Assembly: GCA_013538855.1 (NCBI GenBank)
Contig: JABXJS010000184.1
Span: forward strand, 1-36,865
From: Herpetosiphonaceae bacterium
Lineage (GTDB): Bacteria > Chloroflexota > Chloroflexia > Chloroflexales > Herpetosiphonaceae
Direction of reading: 5' to 3'
DNA length: 36,865 bases
Shown: in pieces, positions 6,210-27,114 of the stretch
How positions within the stretch are numbered: position 1 is the first letter of the stretch
Layout: every line of letters starts with the position of its first letter
Translations under genes and position numbers: made by a program
Notes under the pieces: generated by a model
Database searches by the model: none
What the model saw: only the letters and a program-made list of their open reading frames with translations
What the model was told of the DNA's origin: nothing

Positions 6210-6689
6210 GCAGAGCGACTGGCGTTACGCCCCAGCACGAGCACACGTTAGGGTGTTAATCTGTGCACCGAAACATGCACGAATGAACGATACGCCCATC
6301 TCGACAACGCCCGCCGCTTCTGCTACACTCTCCGCATCCGTTCCCCTTCGACCAAGTAGGCATGATGGCAGCTGTGGTGCGTCCTTACACTCCGCAGCAC
6401 CAGTATGCGCTAGCTGTGGGCTGCAGAAAGAATTAGGATGTCGCCGTCATCGCCCATCTTTGCCCTGCTGGCGCTGTGTGCCCACGCCCAAGGCCATCCC
6501 CCCCGTTTGGAGCTCCGCCAGCAGGGCGTCACCTTGCGCGACCTGATCACCACCTATTCTATTCTATGCCTACCCGCAAAGCAGCGGTTGCCCACGCGCT
6601 GATCCTGGTCGAGACGCAGGGCACCGCCGCCGTGATCATTCCGGATATCCTTGCTCGTCTGGATTCTTTCGTCACAGGAGGGTACCCCG
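6210..6689. other. Gene-poor stretch before the PqqD-like gene
   Basis: No well-supported gene is visible in these 480 bases. A 54-codon frame at 6438-6602 begins with ATG preceded by a weak AG-rich site, and its start (MSPSSPIFALLALCA) has a hydrophobic run. A second, overlapping frame (6566-6736) has no ribosome-binding site. Either could be the wreck of an older gene ahead of the PqqD-like protein. Confidence 0.3.
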
Positions 6690-7796
6690 ATGACCTACCC
6701 GAAACGGATCGCGACCGTCCATGCCGAACAGCTTGATGCAGAGCTCTGCCTCTACGACTGGCAGCGCAAGCACGTCCACACGCTCAACCCGACAGCGGCC
6801 GCCGTCTGGGCGCGCTGCGACGGAGCGACCAGCCCAGCCCAGCTCGCCGCCCAGCTCCAGACCCTGCTAGATGTGCCGCAGGCCGCCGAGGTGGTGCAGG
6901 CCACTCTCCAGCAGCTAGCAGCGGCACACCTGCTGGAAGAACCCGAGGCCCTGGGGCTGGAAAGGAAACACATAAGCCGCCGCCAGCTGCTTAAGCTGGG
7001 CGTGGCCGCCGCCCTGGTGCCGCTGGTCAGCTCGATCGTCGCGCCCACCCCGGTCGCGGCGCAGTCCCCAACCGGCTCGCAGACCTTCAATTTTACCGGT
7101 GCCGAGCAGCAGTTTATCGTGCCGCTGGGCGTGACCGCCGTGACGATTCTGGCCTCTGGCGCACAGGGCAGTAGTAATGACAGCACAGCGATGGGTGGGA
7201 TCATTCAAGCCACTATCCCCGTCACACCTGGAGAGACGCTCTATGTCTATGTTGGTGGGCAGGGAGCTATTACTTCTGGTGGATTTAACGGCGGCGGCGC
7301 TGGTGGTACAGGAGGCGTCATCGGCAGTGGCGGAGGAGGGGCCTCGGATGTGCGACAAGGAGGGAATGGGCTTACTAATCGGGTGGTGGTCGCCGGTGGT
7401 GGCGGCGGTAGATGTCTAGATGGACCTGGCGGGCATGGTGGCTATCCCAATGGTCAGGGCAGCATTGGTGGCCCACAGAGTGGCGGTGGCGGAACCCAAA
7501 CCAGTGGTGGCACCGGTGGAACTGGGAATAACGGCGGAGCCAATGGGGCGGCTGGAACATTGGGGACTGGAGGCATGGGCGGCGCTGGTCCTGCGGTGGG
7601 TAGTGGTGGCGGCGGCGGTGGTGGTGGGTACTATGGCGGTGGTGGCGGTGGCGGTGATGGTGATAACAATGATACTTCCGATGGTGATGGCGGCGGCGGC
7701 GGCGGGTCGGGGTACGTGATCCCCACGGCCACGAATGTTTCCGCTACCACTACTGGCGGGAACCTAGGCGATGGGCAGGTGATCATTAGCTGGTAG
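6690..7796 (+). CDS. PqqD-like domain / Tat signal / glycine-rich secreted protein
   Basis: The 368-residue protein has three parts. Residues about 5-85 form a PqqD-like domain (HTLNPTAAAVWARCDG and a following helical LAAQLQTLL segment). Residues about 94-125 are a twin-arginine signal (ISRRQLLKLG, a hydrophobic stretch, then AQS). From about 130 a beta-rich start (QTFNFTGAEQQFIVP) leads into a long Gly/Ser/Asn-rich tail with a final GQVIISW strand. PqqD domains bind ribosomal peptides for modifying enzymes, so their presence on a putative exported protein is odd. The start at 6690 has AGGAGG upstream; a longer start at 6651 precedes that site and is rejected. A strong hairpin follows. No radical-SAM or other maturation gene is adjacent. 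The function is unknown; an extracellular or cell-surface role is inferred. Confidence 0.8.
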   Translation: MTYPKRIATVHAEQLDAELCLYDWQRKHVHTLNPTAAAVWARCDGATSPAQLAAQLQTLLDVPQAAEVVQATLQQLAAAHLLEEPEALGLERKHISRRQLLKLGVAAALVPLVSSIVAPTPVAAQSPTGSQTFNFTGAEQQFIVPLGVTAVTILASGAQGSSNDSTAMGGIIQATIPVTPGETLYVYVGGQGAITSGGFNGGGAGGTGGVIGSGGGGASDVRQGGNGLTNRVVVAGGGGGRCLDGPGGHGGYPNGQGSIGGPQSGGGGTQTSGGTGGTGNNGGANGAAGTLGTGGMGGAGPAVGSGGGGGGGGYYGGGGGGGDGDNNDTSDGDGGGGGGSGYVIPTATNVSATTTGGNLGDGQVIISW

Positions 7797-8047: not shown

Positions 8048-8782
8048 ATGGATAAGTATTTGCCAGGCTTTGGCCCCAAAAAAGGACCTTGGGGTGGCTT
8101 CGTGCTTGCCATCATCTTCCTGCTGATCGCGCTATGGTCCTTCAAGAATCAAAGTGGCTACTGGTATGTGCTATGGGGTTGTTTAGGGCTACTTAGCATA
8201 TGGTTTGGCATCAACGATCTCAAAGCAAAGCGCGTCGAAGAGCAGACCTTGCGCTACGCAGCACCAATGGCGCAAGCAGAGATTACAACAATCTGCATGG
8301 ATTATTTCGACACAAGCGATCATGATCTCGCTGCCAACCGTCAGGGCCGTCTCTCACAAGACCAGCTAGAGCACGTTCAGGCTAATATCTCGCATCTGTT
8401 CAAAGATGTCACGATTAGCCCGCTGCGCTGGTCCGACCGCGCCATGGGGCAGCGCTTGCTTGAACGTGCGGGCCAGCAGCAGCGCCGACGCGTGCGCGCA
8501 ATCGCGAGCGCACAACCACCGACGCAGCTTGTTCAAACAACAGCCGCCCAAGTAGTCACATACTGTAGCCTCCGCTGCGTCTCCTGCGTAGAGAATACGA
8601 TCAACCCACGCGCGAGCATACTGCGCAGCGCACAAAAGGAGGCCCGCAATGGCGGTGCAACGGCCGGGCTTCGGCCCCAAGAAAGAACCGTGGATAGGCT
8701 TTGTTGGTGCAGTCGGACTGCTGCTTATAGCGCTATGGTCGTTCAGGACGCAGAGTGGCTACTGGTTTTTGCTATGGGCTAG
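8048..8782 (+). CDS. Truncated two-TM paralogue with read-through tail
   Basis: Residues 1 to about 130 match the next gene closely: PGFGPKKxPW, two membrane segments (about 18-32 and 38-55), LRYAAPxxQA, DLAANRQG, then SPLRW. After SPLRWSDR (near 8435-8445) the similarity stops and the frame runs into what is clearly the duplicated leader of the second gene, giving about 110 residues of unrelated Cys/Arg-rich tail. The natural C-terminal part (about 65 residues in the paralogue) is missing. The ribosome-binding site AAAGGAGG is strong, so a chimeric protein may be made, but I regard it as a decayed copy. I do not recognise the family; the architecture suggests a membrane-anchored protein with a cytoplasmic C-terminal domain. 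Confidence 0.6.
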   Translation: MDKYLPGFGPKKGPWGGFVLAIIFLLIALWSFKNQSGYWYVLWGCLGLLSIWFGINDLKAKRVEEQTLRYAAPMAQAEITTICMDYFDTSDHDLAANRQGRLSQDQLEHVQANISHLFKDVTISPLRWSDRAMGQRLLERAGQQQRRRVRAIASAQPPTQLVQTTAAQVVTYCSLRCVSCVENTINPRASILRSAQKEARNGGATAGLRPQERTVDRLCWCSRTAAYSAMVVQDAEWLLVFAMG

Positions 8783-9251
8783 CTTTGGCGCGCTCAGCCT
8801 ATGGAGTGCGCTCAGCGAGCGCCGCGAGCAGCAGGCCGAAGTACACGCCTTGCGCTATGCCGCACCAGTGCCACAGGCCCAACTCACGCACATTGCTATG
8901 AGCGGGCTTGGTGGCCAGCCGGACGATCTCGCGGCGAACCGCCAAGGCATGCTCACCCAACGCCAACTGGCCAAGCTTCAGAGCGTGATTCCCCGCCAGT
9001 TCAAGCATACAGACATGAGTCCAGTGCGCTGGGTCGAAGGGGTGGTCAAGCTGACCCCACGTGGTGGCAAAAGACCAGCGAGTGTCAACGTCGGCCGCGT
9101 CAGTATTCCTGTGCTCAACACCACCTACCTCAACGCATTTAAGCGCGGAGTGCCCTATCGCGTGTACTATGTCGAGGTCACCTACCGCTACGGATGGGCC
9201 AGCGGGCGCTACAACACATTAGTCGCCGCCGAGGCGCTGAGCGACGGCTAA
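8649..9251 (+). CDS. Two-TM membrane protein of unknown function
   Basis: This 200-residue protein is the intact member of the tandem pair. It has a short N-terminus with PGFGPKKEPW, two membrane helices (about 16-31 and 38-54), then a soluble part of about 145 residues that includes LRYAAPVPQA, DDLAANRQGMLTQRQL and a basic, beta-rich end (VPYRVYYVEVTYRYGW). AAAAGGAGG lies just upstream of the start. I know no family for it. Its first 135 residues and its upstream region are duplicated just before it, so the pair arose by partial tandem duplication. A role at the membrane is all that can be inferred. Confidence 0.75.
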   Translation: MAVQRPGFGPKKEPWIGFVGAVGLLLIALWSFRTQSGYWFLLWASFGALSLWSALSERREQQAEVHALRYAAPVPQAQLTHIAMSGLGGQPDDLAANRQGMLTQRQLAKLQSVIPRQFKHTDMSPVRWVEGVVKLTPRGGKRPASVNVGRVSIPVLNTTYLNAFKRGVPYRVYYVEVTYRYGWASGRYNTLVAAEALSDG

Positions 9252-9400: not shown

Positions 9401-10408
9401 ATGGATGCACCCACCCCCTACCAGCCAACGATCGCCGTTATTCCTGCATTCAACGAGGCGCGCTTTATCGGCAGCGTAGTGCTAGCCGCGCGCGCCTACG
9501 TCGATCAAGTCATCGTCGTTGATGATGGCTCGACCGACCAGACCGCCGCCATCGCCTGCAAGGCTGGCGCGGTGGTGGTGCAGCACCAGCAGAACCGTGG
9601 CAAGGCGGCGGCGGTCAACAGCGCCTTCGCCTACGTGCGCCAGCTCAACCCGCTCGCCGTCGTGATGCTCGACGGCGATGGCCAGCACCATGCCAGCGAC
9701 ATTCCCAGCGTGCTCGCGCCGATCTGCCGTGGCGAGGCCGACATCGTGGTTGGCTCGCGCTACTGCGGCATCCAGAGCAGCATCCCCGCCTACCGCAAGG
9801 TGGGCCAGTTTGGCCTGACAGCTATAACCAACCTCGCCTCCGGCGTGCAGGTCAGCGACTCGCAGAGCGGCTTTCGGGCCTTCTCGCGGGCGGCGCTGAC
9901 GACGCTCTCCTTCACCGGCGACGGCGGCTTCTCGATCGAGTCCGAGATGCAGTTCCAGGTGCGCGACCACGCGCTGCGCATCACCGAAGCGCCGATCAAC
10001 GTGACCTACGCCGAGAAGGCCAAGCGCAACCCCTTTGCACAGGGCTGGCAGGTGCTGCGTGGCATCGCTGGCATGGTGCGCCAGACGCGCCCGCTACTCT
10101 TCTGCGCCGCCGTCAGCGCCATCCTGCTAAGCGTGGGGCTGATCTGGGGCTGGGCGCTGATCAGCAGCTACAGCGCGCGCCAGGCGATCGACCCCCTAGC
10201 TGGGCTGCTGACGATCCTGCTGACCGTGTTTGGCGTGGTCGTGCTCTTTGCCGGCGTAGTGCTACACGCCACGCGCGCGATGCTGGTGCGCGTCCAGCAC
10301 ACGCTCGCCGATCATAGCGGCAGTGTACAGATGGACAACATCCGCAGCATCAGACTTCCCGAGCGTGAGCAGCGCCGCGACGACGTGCTGATCCACACCC
10401 AGGCCTAG
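9401..10408 (+). CDS. GT2 glycosyltransferase, dolichyl-phosphate mannose synthase-like, with C-terminal TM pair
   Basis: The 335-residue protein has a GT-A fold of family GT2: VIPAFNEA at 14-20, DDGSTD at 41-46, the acceptor/metal motif DGDGQH at 91-96 and VGSR near 117. Two membrane helices (about 233-255 and 268-290) end it, as in polyprenyl-phosphate glycosyltransferases. It would transfer a sugar from a nucleotide donor to a polyprenyl phosphate at the inner face of the membrane. The start has AGAGGGA upstream. It is the first gene of the glycan operon, 30 bases before the second GT gene. The sugar cannot be told from sequence. Confidence 0.88.
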   Translation: MDAPTPYQPTIAVIPAFNEARFIGSVVLAARAYVDQVIVVDDGSTDQTAAIACKAGAVVVQHQQNRGKAAAVNSAFAYVRQLNPLAVVMLDGDGQHHASDIPSVLAPICRGEADIVVGSRYCGIQSSIPAYRKVGQFGLTAITNLASGVQVSDSQSGFRAFSRAALTTLSFTGDGGFSIESEMQFQVRDHALRITEAPINVTYAEKAKRNPFAQGWQVLRGIAGMVRQTRPLLFCAAVSAILLSVGLIWGWALISSYSARQAIDPLAGLLTILLTVFGVVVLFAGVVLHATRAMLVRVQHTLADHSGSVQMDNIRSIRLPEREQRRDDVLIHTQA

Positions 10409-10438
10409 CCAACGTTTGTGCAGAAGAAGGAGCAGCCA

Positions 10439-11458
10439 ATGCGCGCCAGTATCATCATTGTGAGCTACAACAGCGCGGCCGATCTGCACGCATGCCTGGA
10501 CTCGGCCATGCGCAACGTGCAGGACGACGACGAGATCATCGTAGTCGATAACGCCTCGGAGGACGGCAGCGCCGCGCTTGTGCGCAGCGAGTATCCGCAG
10601 GTGCAGCTGATCGAGAACAGCAACAGCGGCTATGCCGGCGGCAACAACCTGGGGGCCAGCGCCGCCAGCGGCGAGTACCTGGTGTTTCTCAACCCCGATA
10701 CGGTGATGATGCCGCAGGCGCTCGACGCGCTGCTTGCGCCGCTGTGCGTTGACCCAACGGTTGGCCTCGCCACGGCCTGCCTGGTGCATCGCGCCAACCC
10801 GCAGCTGATCAACACCTGCGGCAACACGATGCACTACACGGGACTGACCTACTGTCGCGGCGCAAACCAGCCGCTGGAGCGCTATCAGCAGGACTGCGAG
10901 GTTGATTCGGTGTCAGGAGCGGCCTTCGCCATTCGCAGCAGTCTGTTTGCCCAACTCGGCGGCTTTGATGAAGGCTTTTTTATGTATGTCGAGGACAGCG
11001 ACCTCTCGCTGCGCGCGCGGCTTGCTGGCTACAGCTGCCGCTACGTCGCCGCCGCCGTAGTGCAGCACGACTACAGCATGGCCTACTCGCCGCGCAAGGC
11101 ATTCTATATCGAGCGCAACCGCTACCTGATGCTGCTGCAGAACATCACGCCGCGCACGCTGCTGGCGCTGCTGCCGGGCCTGCTGCTGGGCGAGGTTGTC
11201 ACCTGGGGCTTTTTGCTGCTGAAGGGGCCGCGCTACTGGGCAGTCAAGGGCCGTGTGTACCGCAGCCTGTGGCAGCAGCGCCGCAGGCTGACCCGTCGCC
11301 AGCAGCGCAGCCAAGAGCGCGAGCGGGCGATCATCGGCCAGCTCACCTACCGGCTCGAGTTTGCGCAGATCGCCAGCCCATGGCTCGCAGCGCTGGCCGG
11401 GGCGCTATTTCACCCGCCCTTCAAGCTGGCCCAGCTGCTGCTGCGAGGTGCACGATGA
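10439..11458 (+). CDS. GT2 glycosyltransferase, rhamnosyltransferase (WbbL)-like
   Basis: The 339-residue protein shows the WbbL-like GT2 pattern: IIIVSYNS at 5-12, VDNASEDG at 36-43, GYAGGNN at 64-70, NPDT at 85-88 and the catalytic-base segment FMYVEDSDLS at about 181-190. A membrane-associating hydrophobic stretch follows near 241-263, then a very basic Arg/Gln-rich region. Members add rhamnose or another deoxysugar to a lipid-linked acceptor. AGAAGGAG lies upstream of the start at 10439; the ATG at 10418 lies before it. The stop overlaps the next gene by ATGA. Confidence 0.88.
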   Translation: MRASIIIVSYNSAADLHACLDSAMRNVQDDDEIIVVDNASEDGSAALVRSEYPQVQLIENSNSGYAGGNNLGASAASGEYLVFLNPDTVMMPQALDALLAPLCVDPTVGLATACLVHRANPQLINTCGNTMHYTGLTYCRGANQPLERYQQDCEVDSVSGAAFAIRSSLFAQLGGFDEGFFMYVEDSDLSLRARLAGYSCRYVAAAVVQHDYSMAYSPRKAFYIERNRYLMLLQNITPRTLLALLPGLLLGEVVTWGFLLLKGPRYWAVKGRVYRSLWQQRRRLTRRQQRSQERERAIIGQLTYRLEFAQIASPWLAALAGALFHPPFKLAQLLLRGAR

Positions 11459-11904
11459 AGATCGGCATTGTCTGCTCACACGGCGGCCACTGGAGCGAGA
11501 CCTGTGCACTGTTCGACAGCTTCGCCGAGTACGATGTGTTTGTCGCGACCTATCACAGCCCACGTGCCGACGATGTACGGCGGGTGGCGCGCGCCTACTT
11601 CACCAAAGACATCGGCACCAGCGTCTGGCGGATGGCACGGGCCAGCATCTGGGCGGCACGCATTCTCATCCGCGAGCGGCCTGATGTGATCGTCAGCCTG
11701 GGGGCCGAGATCGCCATCCCGTTTTTCTATCTGGCCAAGCTAATGCGAATCAAGACGCTGTTTATCGAAAGTTGGTGCCGCACCGCCAGCGTCTCCAAGA
11801 CCGGGCGGCTGGTCTACCCCGTTGCCGACGAGTTCTGGGTGCAGTGGCCAGCGCTGGCCGCCAGCGCCGGTCCCAAAGCGCAGTACAGAGGAGCAATACT
11901 ATGA
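11455..11904 (+). CDS. Alg14/PssD-like glycosyltransferase membrane subunit
   Basis: The 149-residue protein matches the Alg14-type family: a nucleotide-fold start MKIGIVCSHGGHWSE, a middle RERPDVIVSLGAEIAIPFFYLAK segment and the IESWCRTASVSKTGRL stretch near 104-120. In yeast Alg14 anchors the catalytic Alg13 to the membrane; bacterial equivalents (PssD/PssE, CpsF/CpsG types) add a sugar to the first lipid-linked residue. It overlaps the gene before by ATGA at 11455-11458 and the gene after by ATGA at 11901-11904, which suits equal expression of both subunits. Confidence 0.85.
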   Translation: MKIGIVCSHGGHWSETCALFDSFAEYDVFVATYHSPRADDVRRVARAYFTKDIGTSVWRMARASIWAARILIRERPDVIVSLGAEIAIPFFYLAKLMRIKTLFIESWCRTASVSKTGRLVYPVADEFWVQWPALAASAGPKAQYRGAIL

Positions 11905-12419
11905 TTTTCGTGACCGTTGGAACACGCCCAGAGGCGTTTGTGCGCTTAGTGCAGGCGGCCGACACGCTGGCAGGCTGGATTGATGAAGCGGTGATTGTGC
12001 AGCTCGGCAGCACGTCCTACCAGCCGCTGCACGCCATCGGCCACAGCTGGATGAACGATGCGACGTTCCGCGCCCATATGCAGGCGGCACGCGTAGTGAT
12101 CAGCCATGCCGGTGCGGGCACGATCATTCAGGCACTCAACGCTGGCAAGCCGCTGGTGGTGGTGCCACGCAGCAGCTGCTTCAACGAGAGCAGCGACGAT
12201 CATCAGCACGAGCTGGCGCAGGCGCTCCACGCCCGCCGCCAGGCGATTATGCTGACCGACGTGCAGCCGCTGACGCTCTGGGATGCCATCACCTTCAGCT
12301 CGGCCCAGCCGATTGCACGCCTTGGTGCGCCACTGCTGCGCGCGGCGTTGAGCGACCGCCTCGTCGCCTGGGAGATGGACAAGCCAATCAAGTATGCTTC
12401 GCTTGGGCGGAAGGGCTAG
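11901..12419 (+). CDS. Alg13/PssE-like glycosyltransferase catalytic subunit
   Basis: The 172-residue protein is the donor-binding half of a GT-B enzyme (GT28 C-terminal type): MIFVTVGTRPEAF at the start, QLGSTSY, VISHAGAGTIIQALNAGKPLVVVPR near 65-93 and a DDHQHELAQAL segment. It should pair with the Alg14-like product just upstream to form one glycosyltransferase at the membrane. GAGGAG lies 8 bases before the start, and the genes share ATGA. A distinctive residue set for a given sugar is not visible. Confidence 0.88.
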   Translation: MIFVTVGTRPEAFVRLVQAADTLAGWIDEAVIVQLGSTSYQPLHAIGHSWMNDATFRAHMQAARVVISHAGAGTIIQALNAGKPLVVVPRSSCFNESSDDHQHELAQALHARRQAIMLTDVQPLTLWDAITFSSAQPIARLGAPLLRAALSDRLVAWEMDKPIKYASLGRKG

Positions 12420-12422
12420 GCC

Positions 12423-13559
12423 ATGCGCATCTGTATGCTTATCTCCACGCCGCTGCCAGCCCGCGAGGGCATCGGCTTCTATGCCTGGAACCTGGCGCAG
12501 CAGCTGCGCGCCCAGGGCCACAGCGTGCACATCATCACCCGCGGCGAGCGCGGCAAGCCTGGACACGAGCAGGTTGCGGGCGTCACCATCTGGCGACCGA
12601 CGTTCTGGCCACTCTATCCCTTCCACGTCGATGTGCACAGCATGTTCGTCGCCAAGGTGCTGCGCATGCTGGAGCCAGAGCTGGATGTCGTGCATCTGCA
12701 CACGCCGCTGGTCAAGCTGCCGCCGACCACGCTACCGGTGCTGGTGACGGTGCACACGCCGATGAAGACCGACGCCGCCGCGATCCCGGCCGACACGCTG
12801 CTGGGCTGGCTGGTCAAGCTGCAAGCGCCCTTCAGCGTGCGGCTGGAGCAGCAGCTGCTGGCGCGCGCCACCACGATCACAGCGGTGGCACACAGCGTCG
12901 CCGACGAGCTGGCCGCCTATAGCATCCAGCCCGACACGGTGGCGGTGCTTGGCAACGGCGTGGACACAGATCTATTTCACCCAGCTGCGGTGCAGCCAGC
13001 AGCGCAGCCATACTTCTTCACCGCCGGGCGGCTGGCCCCGCGCAAAGGCCTAGAGGACCTGCTCGCCTGCGCCGAGCTAGTGGTCGCCCAGCAGCCAGCC
13101 TACCGCTTTCTCATCGCCGGAGCCGGGCCGCTTGAGCGCCAGCTGCGCCAGGAGGTTCAGCGGCGTGGGCTGCAGGCGCACGTTCAGCTGCTTGGCCATA
13201 TCAGCGATCGTCAGCGGCTGGCCGAGCTGTATCGCGGCGCAAGCGCCTATGTGCATCCGGCGCACTACGAGGGGCTGCCGACCGTGCTGCTGGAGGCCAT
13301 GGCCTGTGGCACGCCGGTGGTGGCCACGGCCATCAGTGGCGCGCTCGACGTGCTTGACGGCAGCAACGGCCTGCTCGTGCCGGTACGTCAGCCACACCAG
13401 CTAGCGGCCGCCCTGCTCAAACTGATCGCCCAGCCCAATCTACGCCAGCAGCTCGGCGCGCAGGCGGTCGCAACCATTCGCGCCCGCTATGCCTGGAGCA
13501 GCGTCAGCCAGAGCTATCTTCGGCACTATCAGTCGATCATCAAGGAGCGCTCCGTATGA
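12423..13559 (+). CDS. GT4 family glycosyltransferase
   Basis: The 378-residue GT-B protein has the usual GT4 pattern: an N-terminal glycine loop (PAREGIGFYAWNLAQQL), HLHTPLVK and VTVHTP in the acceptor domain, GNGVDTDLF near 178, FTAGRLAPRKGLEDLL near 197-212 and the donor-binding EGLPTVLLEAMACGTPVVA with its E-x7-E pair near 280-298. It is probably a retaining transferase acting on a growing lipid-linked glycan. It starts 3 bases after the Alg13-like gene and overlaps the next gene by ATGA. Confidence 0.9.
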   Translation: MRICMLISTPLPAREGIGFYAWNLAQQLRAQGHSVHIITRGERGKPGHEQVAGVTIWRPTFWPLYPFHVDVHSMFVAKVLRMLEPELDVVHLHTPLVKLPPTTLPVLVTVHTPMKTDAAAIPADTLLGWLVKLQAPFSVRLEQQLLARATTITAVAHSVADELAAYSIQPDTVAVLGNGVDTDLFHPAAVQPAAQPYFFTAGRLAPRKGLEDLLACAELVVAQQPAYRFLIAGAGPLERQLRQEVQRRGLQAHVQLLGHISDRQRLAELYRGASAYVHPAHYEGLPTVLLEAMACGTPVVATAISGALDVLDGSNGLLVPVRQPHQLAAALLKLIAQPNLRQQLGAQAVATIRARYAWSSVSQSYLRHYQSIIKERSV

Positions 13560-14746
13560 AAAAGATCTGTCTTGTTGCCAGCGGCCTACAGCCACACACG
13601 CTGCGGCTCCAGCCCTGGCGCTATCTTCATCAGGTCGCCTTCGAGCTAGCGCAGCGCGGCCACACGGTCACGCTGATCAGCGATGGCCCCGCCAGCGGCC
13701 CAGACGAGGAGCTGGCGGGCGTGCCCATCCAGCGCATCGCCACGGTGACTAACCCACGCTGGGGGCACAATACCCAGCTCGAGGCCGCCCTGCGCACCAA
13801 CACGCCCGACACGGTGATCTGGCATCTGGGCAAGACCAGCTTTTTGCACCAGCGCTTTCGCTTGCCTGACGTGACGAACCTGGGCATCTTCACCAGCCCG
13901 CTCTACCACATGAGCGAGCTAGCGGCGCTGGGGCTGGTGCGGCTGATCAAGGGCTACGAGCTGAGCGCCGTCCACGTGCTCGGCACGCTCATCCCGCGCC
14001 AGGTGCTGCGCCACAGCTTGAGCCGCAACCTGCTGGATGGACTGGTAGTGCAGACCGCGACCACACGCACACGGCTGATCGAGCTAGGGCTAGAGCCGCA
14101 CGAGGTCACGGTGATCTCGCCGGGCATCGACGATGGCTGGTATCAGCAGCAGGCCGACGAGAGCCTGCGCGCCAATCTTGGGTTCACCAGCCAGGACAAG
14201 GTGATTGTGTACTTCGGCGCGCCGTCGTCGCTGCGCGGGCTGCACACGCTGCTGCGCGCCTTTGCCATCGCCCGCCAGCAGGACGCCCAGCTCAAGCTGC
14301 TGATCCTCAGCCGCCGCCACGCCGACGAGTTGATCAAGGAGGATGCCCAGCTCGGCCGCCTGCTCAACGATCCAGCCATCGCCGCACACGTCCACCTGCG
14401 CAGCGGCTACCTCTCAGCCACAGCGCTGATCCACCACGTCGCCGCAGCCGATGTTGTGGCCCTGCCGTTCGAGCTGGTGCCATCCGATGCGCCACTGAGC
14501 CTGCTGGAGGCCCAGGCGCTCGCCAAGCCGATCATTACCACCGATACAGCCTGTCTCAGCGAGCTGACCAGCGTTGGCTGTCGCTATCTGGCCCAGCCGG
14601 CCGATGTGCCCTCGCTGGCACGTGCGATCCAGCGCGCCACGCAGGGCGCACGCAGCACACTCAGCGGACATCACATTACAGCGCCGCCGATCCGTCGGTG
14701 GCGCCAGGTAGGTACAGAATGGTCACACTTCATCCAAAGTCGCTAG
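13556..14746 (+). CDS. GT-B glycosyltransferase (GT4-like)
   Basis: The 396-residue protein has a GT-B layout: a glycine-poor N-terminus with YLHQVAFELAQRGHTVTLISDG, a linker with ISPGIDDGWY near 188, VIVYFGAPSSLRGLHTLLRAF near 217 and a C-terminal donor site PLSLLEAQALAKPIITTD near 315-332, which keeps the second glutamate of the E-x7-E motif while the first is replaced by a Pro/Ser-Asp context. It is more divergent than its neighbour. It overlaps the gene before by four bases and the next by about 28 bases. Confidence 0.82.
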   Translation: MKKICLVASGLQPHTLRLQPWRYLHQVAFELAQRGHTVTLISDGPASGPDEELAGVPIQRIATVTNPRWGHNTQLEAALRTNTPDTVIWHLGKTSFLHQRFRLPDVTNLGIFTSPLYHMSELAALGLVRLIKGYELSAVHVLGTLIPRQVLRHSLSRNLLDGLVVQTATTRTRLIELGLEPHEVTVISPGIDDGWYQQQADESLRANLGFTSQDKVIVYFGAPSSLRGLHTLLRAFAIARQQDAQLKLLILSRRHADELIKEDAQLGRLLNDPAIAAHVHLRSGYLSATALIHHVAAADVVALPFELVPSDAPLSLLEAQALAKPIITTDTACLSELTSVGCRYLAQPADVPSLARAIQRATQGARSTLSGHHITAPPIRRWRQVGTEWSHFIQSR

Positions 14747-15402
14747 CGCAGCGCCAGCAGCGCGGACGGATGGTCTACATCACCGGCTGCGATGGCGCGG
14801 GCAAGAGCACACAGACGACTCTGCTAGGCCAGCGCCTGGCACAGCAGGGGCGCCGCGCCCGTCGGCTGTGGCTACGCTTTCCATTTCGCCTTAGCCTGCT
14901 CCTGCTGGCCTACGCCCGCCTGCGTGGCCTCAGCTGGTCGGAGACCCACGGCAGCGTGCGCCATGGCTACTGGAACTTTCAGGCCGCGCCGCTGCTGCGG
15001 CGGCTCTTTCCGGCGGTGCTCTGGCTCGATGCCGCCAGCGCCAGCCTGCGCGCGATTTACTGGCCGCTGCTGCGCGGCGAGACGATCATCTGTGAGCGCT
15101 TCGCGCTGGACATGCTCGTCGATCTGATCGTCGCCACCAATGACGAGAGCCTGCTGCGGCGCTGGCCGGGCCGCTGGTTCACGCGCCTGATCCCACGCGA
15201 TACGCTGATCATCGTGCTCGACGCCGATCCGGAGACGCTGCGCGCGCGCCGTAGTGATCTGGCCACCGATCACCGGCTCGCCGCGCGCCGCCAGGCCTTT
15301 CAGCTGCTTGCCGCCACCTATAACCTGCCGCTTATCTCCAGCGCCCTGCCGCTGGAGACGGTGCAGGCCCAGATTTGTTCTCTCATGGAGGCCACCGAAT
15401 GA
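14719..15402 (+). CDS. Thymidylate-kinase-like P-loop protein
   Basis: The 227-residue protein has a Walker A loop GCDGAGKST at residues 23-31, an ICERFALDMLVD segment in the place of the DRY/DRF motif of thymidylate kinases, and VLDADPETLRARR, typical of the LID-side region of this family. It is not likely to be the housekeeping Tmk, since it lies inside a glycan operon and is divergent. Thymidylate-kinase-like proteins occur in other polysaccharide loci, with unknown role. The start at 14719 has AGGTAGG upstream; in-frame ATGs at 14698 and 14770 are alternatives. Its stop overlaps the next gene by ATGA. Confidence 0.75.
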   Translation: MVTLHPKSLAQRQQRGRMVYITGCDGAGKSTQTTLLGQRLAQQGRRARRLWLRFPFRLSLLLLAYARLRGLSWSETHGSVRHGYWNFQAAPLLRRLFPAVLWLDAASASLRAIYWPLLRGETIICERFALDMLVDLIVATNDESLLRRWPGRWFTRLIPRDTLIIVLDADPETLRARRSDLATDHRLAARRQAFQLLAATYNLPLISSALPLETVQAQICSLMEATE

Positions 15403-18296
15403 CAACGCGCACCAAAGGCTACGCCAAAATAACCCAGCCGCTCGCTCAGCGGGCGGTGCGCTGGCCCGCCGCAGCGCTGCTCTCGCACTGGCTGTTCCAA
15501 AGCCTGACGTATATGGATGCGACAGAGCGCTGGTTTAAGCTGGCGCTTGATGCCGCGCTCACAGCCATGCTGAGCCTGCTGCTGCTGCGCTGGCTGCCGC
15601 TGTGGCCGACGCTGCTGCTGGCCTGGGTCGCCGCCCACACCGTGAACATGCTCGCCAATGGCCACCTCTGGGGCGTGCTCAAGCACTACGGCTACACCCA
15701 CTGGAGCTACGCCGAGTTTCAGCGCTACACCCAGCAGCTGGCCCAGGCCGCCGCCAGCGAGCCAAGCATCAGCGCGATCATCGCCTACGGCAGCCTCGCG
15801 CGCACCGAGTGGTCGCCCAGCTCCGATCTTGATGTGCGCATCGTGCGCCGCGCTGGGATGCTCAACGGGCTACGCGCCTGCTGGTTCTTGCTGCGCCAGC
15901 GCAGCCGCGCCACGCTGGCCGGCTTTCCGCTCGATGCCTACGTTGTCGATAGCCGCAAAGCGCTGCAGCGGCTGGCCGCCGACGAGCACCCCATCTTGAT
16001 CTACGCTGCGCCGAAAAACGCCAGCGCCGCGCCAGACACCAACAGCCTCACCGGCGCACGCCGCTGGCTGACGACCTTTGGCGAGCTGCTGCTGTTTGTG
16101 GCCTGCGTGCTGCCAAGCATGGCCCTGTCAACGCAGGCGCTGCAGGAGCCGTGGAACACCTTCCGCCTCGCTCGCGCACAGATGTCGCTGGCCAGCAACC
16201 ACGTGCTGCCCTACGTCACCGCCGCCTCCGGCTACCGCAGCGAGCACATCGGCGGCGAGATTATCGCCAGCGCCCTCATCCGCTCCAGCGGCTGGCCGCT
16301 GGAGGCGCTGGCGCTGCTGCCGCTCGGCGCGCTGCTGCTGGCGCTGGCCTACTACGGCCTAAGCTATGCGCTCACCAGCTCGCGGCTGTGGGCGGCCGCG
16401 ATCACCCTGTTCGCCAGCTGGTACTACCCCGGCCTCTACAGCCAGTTTGGCACGCAGACGTATGCGTGGGTCTATGTGCAGTTTTTGGGATTTTTGCTCC
16501 TGCTCTGGCTGTGGCTCCAGCAGCGCACCCTGCTGCTGTCCGGCGCGCTCGTCGTTTTATTTATTGCGACCTTTTTCAGCTATCACACCACGCCGCTCTG
16601 GATGATCATGGCGCTGTTCTGCGCCGTGGCTGGCCGCCACATCCATGAGCGCAGCCAGGGCATCAAGCCGGTGCAGTGGGACTGGGCGCTGCCGCTGTTC
16701 TGCACGCTGTTCTTTTTTAGCTTCGACACGGTTGTCGTCGGTGATGGCCTTCGCCGCGCCGCCAGCGGCGAGTCGCACGAGTCGCTGTTCCAGTCGCTGG
16801 TCAGCAAGGTGCTCGCGCCCTTCCTCAACCGCACGCCGTCCGCGCTCGACCCGTTCGAGATCGCGCCAGTCAACCAGCGCCTGGCGACATGGAGCACGCT
16901 GGCGGTGCTGCTGCTGCTGACGCTGCCGGTGCTGCTCTGGTGTGGTCTGATGCTGCGCCGTGGGCTAAAGGCACGCTCCCTGAGCGCGCTCGTGCCCGAT
17001 GCACGCTCGATCTTCGTCTGGACCATCGTGCTGGTCGCGGTCGGCCACGGGCTGATCTACATGGCCTACGGCGCGCTCAGCTTCCGCGTGATCCCGCTGG
17101 CCTTCCCGCTGCTGCTGCCGCTGCTGTGGACCTCGACCAACGCCAAGCATGCCGCGCAGCTTATCGCCGCGCTCACGGTGGTCTGTGCCATCGTCGGCTT
17201 CACCAGCTTTGCGCCCACTGTTCAGCCCGCCGTCAGCGCGAGCCAAACCGGCCTAGCCGCCAAGCTGCTTCCCGCCAACAGGAAGATTTTGGCCGATGCG
17301 AATCTCTACGGCTCGCTCCAGCTTCAGGCCGCCTACGATCAGCGCGTGCTCGACTTCACCTGGATCAACGCGCAGAACTATGGCGCTGTGGTCACGGACC
17401 AGCCCGCTGACTCGTTCGACTATGTGGCGATGAGCACTGGCTCCGAGCCGCTGACCAGCTCGGGCTGGCAGTACTTCGCGCCCTGGCCCGCCGCCAGCAG
17501 CCAGTCCACCAGCACGCACAGCTACGACCAGATCTACGCCAGCGCGGCGCTGGTCGTGCTCCAGCCAAGCGGGCAGCCGCTGGCCAGCTACCAGCCGACG
17601 TCTGCTGATCTGGCGGCGCGTGGTCGCACGGGTTTTGCGGCCAGCATCACGCTGTGGCTCACGCTGATGCTGCTGATCGGCGTGCCGGGGCTGGCGCTGG
17701 CCTGGCTCGCGCAGCGCGGCGCGCTGGTTGGGCGCAGTGCCGATATTCGCACCATGGCTGGGCTGGCGGTGGCACTTGGCATCGCAAACCTGACGCTGCT
17801 TGGCTATGTGGCAAACTTCAGCCCGCTGGGGCTGCGCTCGGTGGTGCCGCTGGTGATCGGCGCGCCGCTGCTGGCGCTGCTCGGCCTGCTGCTCATCAAG
17901 CGCCAGCCGGTCGCCATCGCCAGCGTGTGGCTGCACTACGGCGCGACGCTGCTGCTCGTCTCGCTGCTCTGGGCCGCCATGGCGACGGCTGTGAGCGCGC
18001 AGCGCAGCGCCGCCAGCCCCGCCCAGAGCGAGCTGTTTATCACCCAGACTCAGCCCGATGCGCTGACGCTGACCGTCACTAACCCGACAGCGCAGCGCGC
18101 CGACTTCGAGCTGACCATCGCCGTTGACGGCCAGGTGCGCAGCCAGCAGCCGCTGCACCTTGCGCCAGGCGCGCTCAGCAGCCAGCAGTGGCAGGTCGAT
18201 CCCGCCCTGCTTGGCCAGCCCGCCACAATCACGCTGCTACAGCAGGGCCAGCCGCTGCGCACTTTGCACCTAGCCGCCCTGCGCCCAGGGATGTGA
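15399..18296 (+). CDS. Polytopic membrane protein with embedded nucleotidyltransferase domain
   Basis: The 965-residue protein begins with about three membrane segments (22-36, 50-66, 68-84), then a soluble minimal nucleotidyltransferase domain (about 105-205) with the active-site pattern GSLARTEWSPSSDLDV: G131-S132, D143 and D145, and a third acidic candidate D179 in FPLDAYVV. From about 225 follow many membrane helices with a large outer loop, resembling GT-C glycosyltransferases. After a soluble stretch (about 610-745) come four more helices, and it ends with a beta-rich domain (about 870-965). The start at 15399 overlaps the kinase-like gene by ATGA. A nucleotidyl transfer onto a lipid-linked glycan or its phosphate, followed by a membrane step, is a guess. 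I know no named family with this order. Confidence 0.8.
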   Translation: MTTRTKGYAKITQPLAQRAVRWPAAALLSHWLFQSLTYMDATERWFKLALDAALTAMLSLLLLRWLPLWPTLLLAWVAAHTVNMLANGHLWGVLKHYGYTHWSYAEFQRYTQQLAQAAASEPSISAIIAYGSLARTEWSPSSDLDVRIVRRAGMLNGLRACWFLLRQRSRATLAGFPLDAYVVDSRKALQRLAADEHPILIYAAPKNASAAPDTNSLTGARRWLTTFGELLLFVACVLPSMALSTQALQEPWNTFRLARAQMSLASNHVLPYVTAASGYRSEHIGGEIIASALIRSSGWPLEALALLPLGALLLALAYYGLSYALTSSRLWAAAITLFASWYYPGLYSQFGTQTYAWVYVQFLGFLLLLWLWLQQRTLLLSGALVVLFIATFFSYHTTPLWMIMALFCAVAGRHIHERSQGIKPVQWDWALPLFCTLFFFSFDTVVVGDGLRRAASGESHESLFQSLVSKVLAPFLNRTPSALDPFEIAPVNQRLATWSTLAVLLLLTLPVLLWCGLMLRRGLKARSLSALVPDARSIFVWTIVLVAVGHGLIYMAYGALSFRVIPLAFPLLLPLLWTSTNAKHAAQLIAALTVVCAIVGFTSFAPTVQPAVSASQTGLAAKLLPANRKILADANLYGSLQLQAAYDQRVLDFTWINAQNYGAVVTDQPADSFDYVAMSTGSEPLTSSGWQYFAPWPAASSQSTSTHSYDQIYASAALVVLQPSGQPLASYQPTSADLAARGRTGFAASITLWLTLMLLIGVPGLALAWLAQRGALVGRSADIRTMAGLAVALGIANLTLLGYVANFSPLGLRSVVPLVIGAPLLALLGLLLIKRQPVAIASVWLHYGATLLLVSLLWAAMATAVSAQRSAASPAQSELFITQTQPDALTLTVTNPTAQRADFELTIAVDGQVRSQQPLHLAPGALSSQQWQVDPALLGQPATITLLQQGQPLRTLHLAALRPGM

Positions 18297-18348: not shown

Positions 18349-19620
18349 ATGACAACATGGATCAAACAGCGGCTCCATGACCGGCTAGTGCAGCAGACCA
18401 TGCTGCTGTTCACAATGCGCGTGCTCGGCACGGGGCTAGGCTTTCTCTTCTGGGTGCTGGCTGCACGCTTCATCAGCAGCGCGCAGATGGGCATCGCCTC
18501 CGGGGCTGTCGCTGGCACAGCGCTGCTGGCGAGTCTGGCGCAGCTCGGGCTAGGCTATGTGCTCGTGCGCCACCTGAGTCGCAGCGCCAACCCTGGCGCG
18601 CTCGTCAATCGTGCGCTGATCATCGTCGGCAGCGTGGCGCTGCTGGCGGCGACGGTGTTTCTGCTTGGGGCCAGTAGATGGTCGCCGGAGCTGCGGCCGC
18701 TGCGCACCACGCTGCTCACCAGCGCGCTGTTTCTGCTGCTGGTCGGCAGCACGGCGCTCTCGCAGCTGCTGCACTGGGTGTTTCTCGCCTGCCGTCAGCT
18801 CAACTACTCGCTGGCCAAGCAGATCTGTCAGTCGCTGCTGGCGCTGCTGCTGCTGTGGCTTTGTCGGCCGCTCGGCGGCTACCTGACCGTGCTGGTGGCC
18901 TATGTGGGAGCGACGCTGGCCGCGCTGCTGCTGGCCTGGATTGCCTTCTTGCCGCGCGTCATCCCGCGCTACGCGCCGCGCTGGCCTGGCACGCTGCGCA
19001 TTCAGCGCGCGGCGCTCTTCGAGGCCCTGCCCAACTACTGCGCCGACCAACTCCAGCGCGCTCCCGACACCATTTTGCCGCTGATCGCGCTGCACACGCT
19101 GGGGCCAAACGGCGGCGCTACCTTCTTCATCGTCTGGTCACTCGGCAGCAGCATGAGTTCGTGGGCCTGCGCGGTGGCCGAGTCGCTGCTGACCGAAGGC
19201 ATGCACACGCCAGCGCTGGTGCCACACTACGCCCGCCGCGCCACCAGGCTTGGCCTGCTGCTGATGACCGGCATGGGCTTGGCGCTCATGCTCGCCAGCC
19301 GGTCGGTCCTAAGCCTCTATGGCGTGACTTACGCTGGGACAGGCCGCTGGCTGCTGCTCGCCGTCACGGTCAGCGGCGTGCCCTGGGTCCTAAACTCGCT
19401 CCAGGTGAGTCGCCTGCGTATTGTGCGCCGCCACCGCGCCGTGATGGGCTTGATGCTTAGCAGCAACGGCCTCGGCATCGTCGTTGCTGGCGCGCTGATG
19501 GCCTACGGCATGGTCTGGGCTGGCCTCGGCTGGCTGGCGGTGCAGACCAGCATCTGCGCATTAACCTACCTCTGGCCGCAGCCCACCCCCGCCATGGCCG
19601 TCGAGCACAGCATCGGCTAG
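18349..19620 (+). CDS. Wzx-like polysaccharide flippase (MOP superfamily)
   Basis: The 423-residue protein is hydrophobic throughout, with about twelve predicted membrane helices. Its N-terminus (TMLLFTMRVLGTGLGFLFWVLAARFISSAQMGIAS) matches the start of polysaccharide biosynthesis/flippase proteins, where LxxRxLGxxxGxxFxxLxAR is usual. It would carry the lipid-linked glycan from the inner to the outer face. GGAG lies before the start. It is 52 bases after the nucleotidyltransferase fusion and is the last gene of the operon, followed by a hairpin. Confidence 0.87.
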   Translation: MTTWIKQRLHDRLVQQTMLLFTMRVLGTGLGFLFWVLAARFISSAQMGIASGAVAGTALLASLAQLGLGYVLVRHLSRSANPGALVNRALIIVGSVALLAATVFLLGASRWSPELRPLRTTLLTSALFLLLVGSTALSQLLHWVFLACRQLNYSLAKQICQSLLALLLLWLCRPLGGYLTVLVAYVGATLAALLLAWIAFLPRVIPRYAPRWPGTLRIQRAALFEALPNYCADQLQRAPDTILPLIALHTLGPNGGATFFIVWSLGSSMSSWACAVAESLLTEGMHTPALVPHYARRATRLGLLLMTGMGLALMLASRSVLSLYGVTYAGTGRWLLLAVTVSGVPWVLNSLQVSRLRIVRRHRAVMGLMLSSNGLGIVVAGALMAYGMVWAGLGWLAVQTSICALTYLWPQPTPAMAVEHSIG

Positions 19621-24495: not shown

Positions 24496-27114
24496 TCAGC
24501 GCTGCACAACGGGCAGGAACACCTGCACCAGCGCTGCATCGTTATCAACGATTGTCACCAGCACGCTCGTCGTCGTAAGCGTGGCATATGTCAGCTGAAG
24601 GTTCACGCTGAAGGTCTCGTCGCCCTCATACACAGCATCATTGATCGTTGGAATAACGATGGTCGCGCTCTGCTGGCCCATGGGAATGCTGACCATAGCG
24701 TCGGCTATGCCGGTGAAGTCAGCAGGAGCCTGCGCCGTGCCATCGGTGGTGGAGTACGCAATCGTCGTCGTGATCACAGCAGGCGCATCAAGCGTGAGGG
24801 TTAGCGAGAACGCTGCGCCCTCCGCCACTGGCGCAGCGCCGCTCAGGCTCAAGCGCGGCATAAGCTGCACTGGCTGCGGCAGCGGATGATCGGTTGTGGT
24901 GCCATCGCCAAGCTGGCCCGCCACGTTCAAGCCCCAGCAGGACACGCCGCCCTGCGCCACCAGCGCGCACGTGTGGTACACACCTACGTCGATGGCAATC
25001 GCCGAGGTTAAACCGCTCACCAGCGTTGGTGTCAGCGCATCGGTGGTCGTGCCGTCGCCAAGCTGGCCATGGAAATTGCTGCCCCAGCAGCGTGCTGTCC
25101 CGTCAATCAGCACAGCGCAGGTATGATTATAGCCAGCCTTCAGCGCCAGCACATCCGTCAGACCACTCACCGCCACTGGCGTTGTACTGCTGGTGGTCGT
25201 GCCATCGCCAAGCAGCCCGGTGATGTTCTGGCCCCAGCAGCGCGCTGTGCCATCCGTCAGCACGGCACAGGTGTGATCAAAGCCCGTGCTAACCGCCCGC
25301 ACATGGTCCAGCCCACTGACAGCTACCGGCAGCGCGCGATTCGTTGTGGTCCCGTCGCCAAGCTGCCCAGCATTGTTGAATCCCCAGCAGCGCACCGTGC
25401 CGTCGGCTAGCACGGCACAGGTGTGGCCACCGCCAGCGCTCAGCGCCAGCGTGTCAGTTAGGCCGCTCACCGCCACCGGCGTATGCTGATCCGTTGTGGT
25501 GCCATCGCCGAGCTGCCCACCTGTGTTCCGGCCCCAGCAGCGCGCCGCTCCGTCGGCCAGCACAGCACAGGTGTGGGCACCGCCAGCGCTCAGCGCCAGC
25601 GTGTCAGTCAGGCCGCTCACCGCCACCGGTGTACGCTGATCCGTTGTGGTGCCATCGCCGAGCTGCCCATCCTGATTGTCGCCCCAGCAGCGCGCCGCTC
25701 CGTCGGCCAGCACAGCACATGTATGGTTGTTGCCTGCATCCAGCATCACCGGATTGGTCAGGCCGCTGGTCGCCACTGGCAGTGCGCGATTCGTCGTGGT
25801 CCCGTCGCCAACCTGCCCGTTGACATTGCGCCCCCAGCAGTAGGGCTGAAAGCGCTCGCGCAGCAGACAGGTGTGCAAGCCAGCGGCTGTGATCGACTGC
25901 GCAGTAAACACGGGCTGACGAAGGTTGCCAACAGCCACCGGCATGTGCCGATCCGCTGTCGTCCCATCGCCCAAGGTGCCATTTGCGTTTGCGCCCCAGC
26001 AGCGCGCCGTCCCGTCGGCCAGCAGCGCGCAGCCATGCTCCAGCCCCAGAGCGATCTGCACCGCAGTGTCAAGATCGCTCACCGCCACTGGCGTGTGCCG
26101 ATCAGTCGTCGTTCCATCGCCAAGCTGGCCGTGATTGTTGCTGCCCCAGCAGCGTACCGTCCCATCAACGCGCACGGCGCAGCTACTTTTGAACGCACCA
26201 TGAATGGCAACCACCGCATCGAGGGTGCTCACCGCCGCTGGCGCGTGGCGCTCGGTTGTGGTGCCATCGCCAAGCTGGCCATTGCCATTGTTGCCCCAGC
26301 AGCGCACGCTGCCATCGGCCACTAGCGCACACGCATGATCATAGCCCACGCCCAGCCCTGTCACCTCGGCCAGACCGCTCACCGCCACCGGTGTGTGCTG
26401 ATCTGTCGTCGTCCCATCGCCAAGCTGGCCATGAGTATTGCTGCCCCAGCAGGCCACCGTCCCATCGCCACGCAGTGCGCAGGTAAATAGATGCTGGGCG
26501 CTGATGGCGATCACATTCGTGAGACCGCTCACCGCCACCGGCGTCAGCCGCTGCGTGGTGGTGCCGTCGCCGAGTTGCCCGTAGAGATTACCGCCCCAGC
26601 AGGCCACCGTTCCATCGCCAAGCAGTGCGCAGGTGTGATCAGCAGCGGCAGCGAGCATCTGCACATTGCTCAGACCCACGACCGGCACCGGCGTGTGGCG
26701 ATCATTCGTCGTCCCATCACCGAGCTGCCCGTACTGGTTGAGGCCCCAGCAGCGCACTGTCCCTGCCGCCAGCACGGCGCAGGTATGGTTGGAGCCGCCA
26801 GCGACCATCTGCACTCCAGCAATGGCGCTGACGCTCACAGGGTTCGTACGATTTGTCGTGGTGCCATCGCCCAGCTCTCCGTTGCCATTGCGACCCCAGC
26901 AGCGCAGCGTCCCATCGGTCAGCAGCGCACAGCTGCTGTAGCCGCCGCCGCTGACCTGCGGGTGGCCGGACGCCCCCGGTGATACGCCTGGCGCAAGCTG
27001 GACACGGGCCACCGGCCCCACCGCCAATGTGTTCAGCGGCGGCAGGCTACCAAGCAGCAGCCCAATAATCAGCACTCCCAGCTTCAGCCATAATCTACGT
27101 TCCAACTGCGGCAT
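24496..27114 (-). CDS. Secreted RCC1-repeat protein (7+7) with Calx-beta domain
   Basis: The 872-residue protein has an N-terminal signal peptide (about 1-32, ending in LAVG), then fourteen repeats of about 50 residues with the core HTCAVLADGTxRCWGxNxxGQLGDGTTT, then a Calx-beta domain (about 750-855: FSLTLTLDAPA, YSTTDGTA, DETFSVNL) and the end FLPVVQR. RCC1 repeats form seven-bladed propellers. A longer, odd linker lies between repeats 7 and 8, so this is probably two propellers in tandem. Each repeat keeps two cysteines, likely disulfide-bonded outside the cell. AGGAG precedes the start at 27114. Repeats 9 and 10 are nearly identical in DNA, a recent duplication. Likely a cell-surface or matrix protein; its ligand is unknown. 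Confidence 0.92.
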   Translation of the reverse strand: MPQLERRLWLKLGVLIIGLLLGSLPPLNTLAVGPVARVQLAPGVSPGASGHPQVSGGGYSSCALLTDGTLRCWGRNGNGELGDGTTTNRTNPVSVSAIAGVQMVAGGSNHTCAVLAAGTVRCWGLNQYGQLGDGTTNDRHTPVPVVGLSNVQMLAAAADHTCALLGDGTVACWGGNLYGQLGDGTTTQRLTPVAVSGLTNVIAISAQHLFTCALRGDGTVACWGSNTHGQLGDGTTTDQHTPVAVSGLAEVTGLGVGYDHACALVADGSVRCWGNNGNGQLGDGTTTERHAPAAVSTLDAVVAIHGAFKSSCAVRVDGTVRCWGSNNHGQLGDGTTTDRHTPVAVSDLDTAVQIALGLEHGCALLADGTARCWGANANGTLGDGTTADRHMPVAVGNLRQPVFTAQSITAAGLHTCLLRERFQPYCWGRNVNGQVGDGTTTNRALPVATSGLTNPVMLDAGNNHTCAVLADGAARCWGDNQDGQLGDGTTTDQRTPVAVSGLTDTLALSAGGAHTCAVLADGAARCWGRNTGGQLGDGTTTDQHTPVAVSGLTDTLALSAGGGHTCAVLADGTVRCWGFNNAGQLGDGTTTNRALPVAVSGLDHVRAVSTGFDHTCAVLTDGTARCWGQNITGLLGDGTTTSSTTPVAVSGLTDVLALKAGYNHTCAVLIDGTARCWGSNFHGQLGDGTTTDALTPTLVSGLTSAIAIDVGVYHTCALVAQGGVSCWGLNVAGQLGDGTTTDHPLPQPVQLMPRLSLSGAAPVAEGAAFSLTLTLDAPAVITTTIAYSTTDGTAQAPADFTGIADAMVSIPMGQQSATIVIPTINDAVYEGDETFSVNLQLTYATLTTTSVLVTIVDNDAALVQVFLPVVQR

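Follow-up and report, generated by a model that had tools for sequence, protein, structure and literature searches.

What does a nucleotidyltransferase (NT) domain do in the same chain as a membrane protein of the GT-C type? This question is raised by an ORF of 965 codons on the forward strand of a 36,865-nucleotide stretch of Herpetosiphonaceae DNA (the window), which begins with an ATG at 15399 and whose stop ends at 18296. The length of this ORF and the residues G131, S132, D143, D145 and D179, as named in a first-pass annotation made from the DNA letters, are borne out by its sequence. With regard to its anatomy, the product is very probably a two-module protein, in which an NT module (residues 1 to about 204) is followed in one chain by a GT-C module (from about residue 219). 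Both folds are already known and the architecture is their combination. The parts of the protein are placed as follows:

15399..18296, +, fused NT and GT-C protein, 965 aa
15465..15689, +, membrane anchor of the NT module, residues 23-97
15690..16010, +, minimal nucleotidyltransferase domain, residues 98-204 (motif, model, structure and Pfam matches)
15789..15794, +, G131-S132 of the GSX10DXD signature
15825..15833, +, D143-x-D145
15933..15935, +, D179, third of the acidic residues, where strand 178-184 begins
15981..15983, +, D195 codon (GAC), aligned with the in-frame TAG stop of the three Herpetosiphon genomes
16053..17207, +, GT-C membrane core, residues 219-603 (model, structure matches)
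17208..17600, +, predicted non-membrane region, residues 604-734, of low model confidence (model)
17601..18014, +, C-terminal helices, residues 735-872, weakly conserved (29-30%)
18024..18287, +, C-terminal Ig-like beta-sandwich, residues 876-963, 22-26% identity to Herpetosiphon

The window protein contains an exact GSX10DXD signature (GS at 131-132, ten residues, then D143-x-D145) in addition to D179. The same signature is the active motif of MntA and is required for its adenylyl transfer (PMC7641770). It is considered to be more than a chance occurrence because the 109-aa NT region, when searched alone, matched the Pfam families Polbeta (E 2.5e-5) and NTP_transf_2 (E 7.5e-4), with both matches lying slightly under the curated cut-off (20.3 against 21 bits for PF01909 and 24.8 against 26.9 bits for PF18765). 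The best NCBIfam match was MntA, far below cut-off, while Pfam returned no match of the domain to the LicD family or to PF14907, and a profile of the NT part found no relatives among PDB sequences. An AlphaFold2 model of residues 1-207, built on a four-sequence alignment, had a mean pLDDT of 75, with blocks of the NT domain mostly at 77-91 and the motif loop at 54. Its elements (helix 104-119, strand 124-130, strand 144-150, helix 154-173, strand 178-184, helix 185-194, strand 199-203) follow the order of an NT domain, and the DxD runs into the second strand with D179 on the third, as in the NT fold when judged at strand level. Foldseek placed PDB entry 2rff first (E 2.9e-3) and also matched the MNT entries 8xeh and 8xeo; VIA-align gave a Z score of 10.3 for 2rff, with MNT and ANT enzymes at 8-10. 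The top PDB matches were minimal nucleotidyltransferases, MNT antitoxins and aminoglycoside nucleotidyltransferases. The earlier proposal of an intact minimal NT active site is supported in this way by both sequence and predicted fold.

The domain thus shares with the minimal nucleotidyltransferases (PF01909, PF18765; MntA, HI0073, 2rff) the GSX10DXD motif with a third acid, the predicted fold and the domain size. It differs from the MNT proteins in having a membrane hairpin in front, a glycan operon around it, a GT-C fusion, no HEPN partner seen and sub-cut-off Pfam scores. MNT proteins are proven protein adenylyltransferases (PMC7641770), and with MNT antitoxins among the nearest structures and MntA as the best NCBIfam match, albeit far below cut-off, it could be proposed that the NT, like MntA or glutamine synthetase adenylyltransferase, puts AMP on a partner (GT-C part, kinase or flippase) and thereby regulates glycan output. 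However, no HEPN (HepT) partner was found among the genes searched, the neighbours being a kinase, glycosyltransferases and a flippase, and a regulator would need neither a conserved membrane anchor nor a kinase neighbour in a pathway operon. Such protein adenylylation is on the whole considered unlikely.

The first-pass annotation had viewed the NT domain as embedded in a GT-C protein, between its membrane helices. This view is contradicted by three Herpetosiphon species in which the NT, with its own helices, and the GT-C protein are encoded by separate genes. The glycan operon is shared by pHAU01 of H. aurantiacus, by H. geysericola and by a third, Herpetosiphon-like genome of the same genus (G005). 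Its ten genes have the order GT2, GT2, Alg14/PssD-like, PssE-like, GT4, GT4, thymidylate-kinase-like, NT, GT-C and flippase, and are colinear between the window and Herpetosiphon, each gene being 39-65% identical. The H. geysericola contig ends within the second GT2 gene, and pHAU01 has an additional hexapeptide-transferase gene before the flippase. A survey of the homologues' neighbours, as suggested earlier, found the same glycan operon, with kinase, NT and GT-C together and in the same order, in the three Herpetosiphon genomes. In all three, the NT and GT-C genes are adjacent, in the same frame and nine bases apart, with the NT stop TAG lying in the sequence TAGGAG, of which AGGAG is a ribosome-binding-site sequence six bases before the GT-C ATG. 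As Herpetosiphon has them as separate in-frame genes, the window protein is seen as the one-piece form of two linked genes, and the helices N-terminal to the NT domain are part of the NT module, not of the GT-C module. It should also be noted that the H. aurantiacus NT gene (CP000876.1, about 118914-119570; L054 18915-19571) is missing from the annotation table, its site in pHAU01 being a gap between the consecutive tags Haur_5091 and Haur_5092.

The Herpetosiphon TAG aligns with D195 of the window protein, and the flanking distances match within one codon. The fused form was found in one genome only, as would be expected if the fusion were a sequencing or assembly error in what are really two genes as in Herpetosiphon. 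Yet the frame is open, with no indel against two Herpetosiphon sequences and one codon of difference from the third, and position 195 is GAC, several substitutions away from TAG, in a linker that differs along its whole length. An error of this kind is therefore judged extremely improbable.

The three Herpetosiphon NTs are 41-42% identical to that of the window, and all four sequences keep the G, the S and the three D residues unchanged (n = 4 for this conservation argument). The earlier note had allowed that homologues might all lack the acidic residues; all three were found to keep them. Between Herpetosiphon species the NT gene showed a dN of 0.16-0.29 and a dS of 0.93-1.16, with dN/dS well below 1, and purifying selection on the gene is shown at the level of these sequences. 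The spacing of the motif is one residue short (GSX9DXD) in two of the three Herpetosiphon NTs, those of G005 and H. aurantiacus, and all three stop soon after the third strand with a C-terminus shorter than in the window. Both features count against a catalytic reading.

In the model, the anchor of the NT module consists of a shorter helix (23-37) followed by a predicted hairpin (41-62 and 68-86). Its identity of 46-49% compares with 39-42% in the NT domain, and it contains the conserved motifs SHWxFQS, TER, AHTxN and NGHxWGVLKH. The conserved polar residues suggest that the anchor may do more than hold the domain in place; recognition of a membrane-bound substrate would fit this conservation. 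An anchor whose conservation equals or exceeds that of the NT domain, together with the drift in motif spacing in two homologues and the shortened Herpetosiphon NTs, could also point to a non-catalytic domain that binds a nucleotide or nucleotide sugar and either gates the GT-C part or scaffolds the glycosyltransferases. Pure binding would not, however, demand that the G, the S and the three acids be invariant at 41-42% identity, and a sensor or scaffold of this sort is regarded as rather improbable.

The remainder of the protein had been called GT-C-like, and this was confirmed by the predicted structure. The full-protein model, built from eight sequences, was of moderate quality (mean pLDDT 65), with blocks of the GT-C core mostly at 80-90 and residues 604-734 poorly modelled. 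Over residues 221-610 the nearest structures were STT3, AglB, PMT4, ArnT, PglB, AftA, EmbB, DPY19 and AftB, with Z scores for the core of 15.8 for STT3 (319 residues), 13.8 for AglB, 12.7 for PMT, 12.6 for ArnT and 12.6 for PglB; alignments to known GT-C structures spanned 257-364 residues. The window protein therefore shares the membrane core (219-603, best Z 15.8) with the GT-C enzymes STT3/AglB/PglB, PMT, ArnT, AftA/AftB and Emb, and its operon also contains a polyprenyl-phosphate-sugar synthase-like GT2. It differs from these enzymes in its extra C-terminal helices and beta-sandwich and in matching no GT-C Pfam family; a GT-C sequence profile found no relatives among PDB sequences, including the solved GT-C proteins. 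When acids of the first outer loop were compared, E250 and E282 were found to be kept in four close sequences, but not in the GT-C homologue of a further genome (G234). GT-C proteins start in the cytosol. Since the NT domain directly precedes helix 219-244, it should by this modelled topology be on the cytosolic side, which bears on the earlier note's question of whether the domain is cytosolic and derives from the GT-C fold.

The glycan operon context was likewise borne out by the neighbouring genes, which are listed below:

9401..10408, +, GT2 like polyprenyl-phosphate sugar synthases (AglJ-like), may make the GT-C donor
10418..11458, +, GT2 glycosyltransferase
11455..11904, +, Alg14/PssD-like glycosyltransferase subunit, start inferred from homologues
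11901..12419, +, PssE-like glycosyltransferase subunit, start inferred from homologues
12423..13559, +, GT4 glycosyltransferase
13556..14746, +, GT4 glycosyltransferase
14698..15402, +, thymidylate-kinase-like P-loop kinase, start tentative, stop overlapping the NT start (ATGA; GAATGACAA)
18349..19620, +, Wzx-like flippase (Polysacc_synt)

The first GT2 matches AglJ (E 3e-45); polyprenyl-phosphate sugar synthases are the usual donor makers for GT-C enzymes. Just before the operon, at 8048-9251, lie two overlapping ORFs with near-identical "PGFGPKKxPWxGFV" beginnings, apparently tandem duplicated small membrane proteins, the first of which had no Pfam match. Elsewhere in the window, the product of the gene at 6651-7796 oddly combines a glycine-rich domain of the ALK/LTK type with a PqqD-like domain at its N-terminus and a weak match to a TAT signal, and an 872-aa protein with RCC1 repeats and a Calx-beta domain is encoded at 24496-27114 on the reverse strand.

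The kinase (14698-15402) matches Thymidylate_kin (E 9e-7) and thymidylate kinase structures, and its P-loop is intact. Four Chloroflexota relatives of this kinase carry PF14907 (NTP_transf_5) in the same chain, other relatives being without it. The fusions are located at:

L043 9582-11393, PF14907 fused to a thymidylate-kinase-like domain
L044 6906-8825, PF14907 fused to a thymidylate-kinase-like domain
L045 2227-3954, PF14907 fused to a thymidylate-kinase-like domain
L050 8308-10110, PF14907 fused to a thymidylate-kinase-like domain

As in the window, an NT-type domain is coupled in these fusions to a related kinase; they differ in that the NT domain belongs to another family, no membrane helices were found and the kinase is in the same chain. 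The idea that full-length PF14907 proteins are generally accompanied by such a kinase was dropped when no such kinase motif was found near the 30 loci that had full-length PF14907 matches. In G234 (L041 7323-11248) a GT-C homologue and a related kinase flank a type I phosphodiesterase gene (PF01663), located where the NT would be, and no NT gene was recognised within the 20 kb examined. The kinase-NT pairing is thus not universal, as seen in G234 and the 30 PF14907 loci, and this counts against cooperation of the two proteins.

The earlier note had suggested that the domain might attach a nucleotide or phospho-group to a lipid-linked glycan or might sense nucleotide sugar; with the kinase as a neighbour, catalysis is considered somewhat likelier than sensing. 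The reading that is tentatively preferred, from conserved residues and by analogy, is that a catalytic NT and the kinase may modify a lipid-linked glycan with a nucleotidyl or phosphodiester group, ahead of export and the GT-C step. This is proposed because the catalytic residues are conserved, the domain is anchored, a kinase is its neighbour and parallels exist in PsmK/PsmN and FKRP. In lasso peptide clusters, PsmK phosphorylates and PsmN then adds a hexose to the phosphate (PMC9266682), so that in pseudomycoidin biosynthesis, as proposed here, an NT-family protein follows a kinase and acts on the phosphorylated product; there the substrate is a lasso peptide and the setting is not a glycosyltransferase operon. 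That phospho-ribitol can be passed to a glycan by an NT fold is shown by FKRP, which like LicD and fukutin builds a glycan phosphodiester (PMC6965139). The window NT is without a LicD-family match, although a mechanism of that type is conceivable, and FKRP belongs to a eukaryotic secretory pathway. A further parallel could be drawn from the kinase/NT order of pseudomycoidin biosynthesis and the fusion of kinase relatives to PF14907 domains, namely that the domain is an unusual, PsmN-like sugar-phosphate transferase that adds a sugar to a phosphate installed by the kinase. However, the window NT scores with the Polbeta/NTP_transf_2 group and not with PF14907, and the chemistry of PsmN itself is not settled, which makes this reading very doubtful.

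For the preferred reading of a catalytic NT acting on a lipid-linked glycan, we infer the cytosolic side, the catalysis, the substrate, the cooperation of the kinase and the order of events. The minimal NT would sit on the cytosolic side of the membrane, anchored through its own helical hairpin, would bind metal through D143, D145 and D179 and would use a nucleoside triphosphate or an NDP-linked donor. With a phosphorylated substrate possibly supplied by the thymidylate-kinase-like protein encoded just upstream, it may modify a polyprenyl-linked glycan, or a phosphorylated precursor of that glycan, with a nucleotidyl group or another group in phosphodiester linkage. The glycan would then be exported by the Wzx-like flippase, and the GT-C active site, predicted on the outer side of the membrane, would add a sugar after flipping, with a polyprenyl-phosphate sugar made by the GT2 at 9401 as the probable donor.

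The anchored NT was found in four of 301 Chloroflexota genomes, all of one family. Because five of the eight other family members searched were without a match (two of the five being incomplete genomes), the operon is regarded as accessory. When the NT profile was run against the 301 genomes at E 1, only weak matches were obtained beyond these four; one (L087) was antisense to a lysine 2,3-aminomutase-like gene, and the others inspected lay at or near soluble nucleotidyltransferases. A match on an Azospirillum plasmid (E 5) was attributed to chance. Searches of a contig collection found no relative of the whole protein and, for the NT profile, only two Herpetosiphon records, although with their narrow peptide patterns these searches are weak evidence of absence. 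The GT-C profile gave nothing new in 199 genomes of the class of G234. No curated model matches the anchored NT family above cut-off. The earlier statement that this domain order belongs to no named family holds, with no curated sequence family fitting it and no description of the architecture in the literature covered, which was incomplete.

The occurrence of natural split and fused forms makes the association of NT and GT-C unusually well supported, and one carrier of the operon is a species in culture whose genome is complete (H. aurantiacus, on pHAU01). It is conceivable, and put forward with some reserve, that a new membrane-bound NT family, paired with a thymidylate-kinase-like kinase, decorates lipid-linked glycans at the cytosolic face with nucleotidyl or phosphodiester groups and is joined to a GT-C protein working on the same glycan at the other face of the membrane. 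Should the NT prove catalytic, bacteria would possess a small membrane-anchored enzyme, falling outside every curated family, that attaches groups of the phosphodiester type to lipid-linked glycans, and a kinase/nucleotidyltransferase module open to testing would be tied to a GT-C enzyme.
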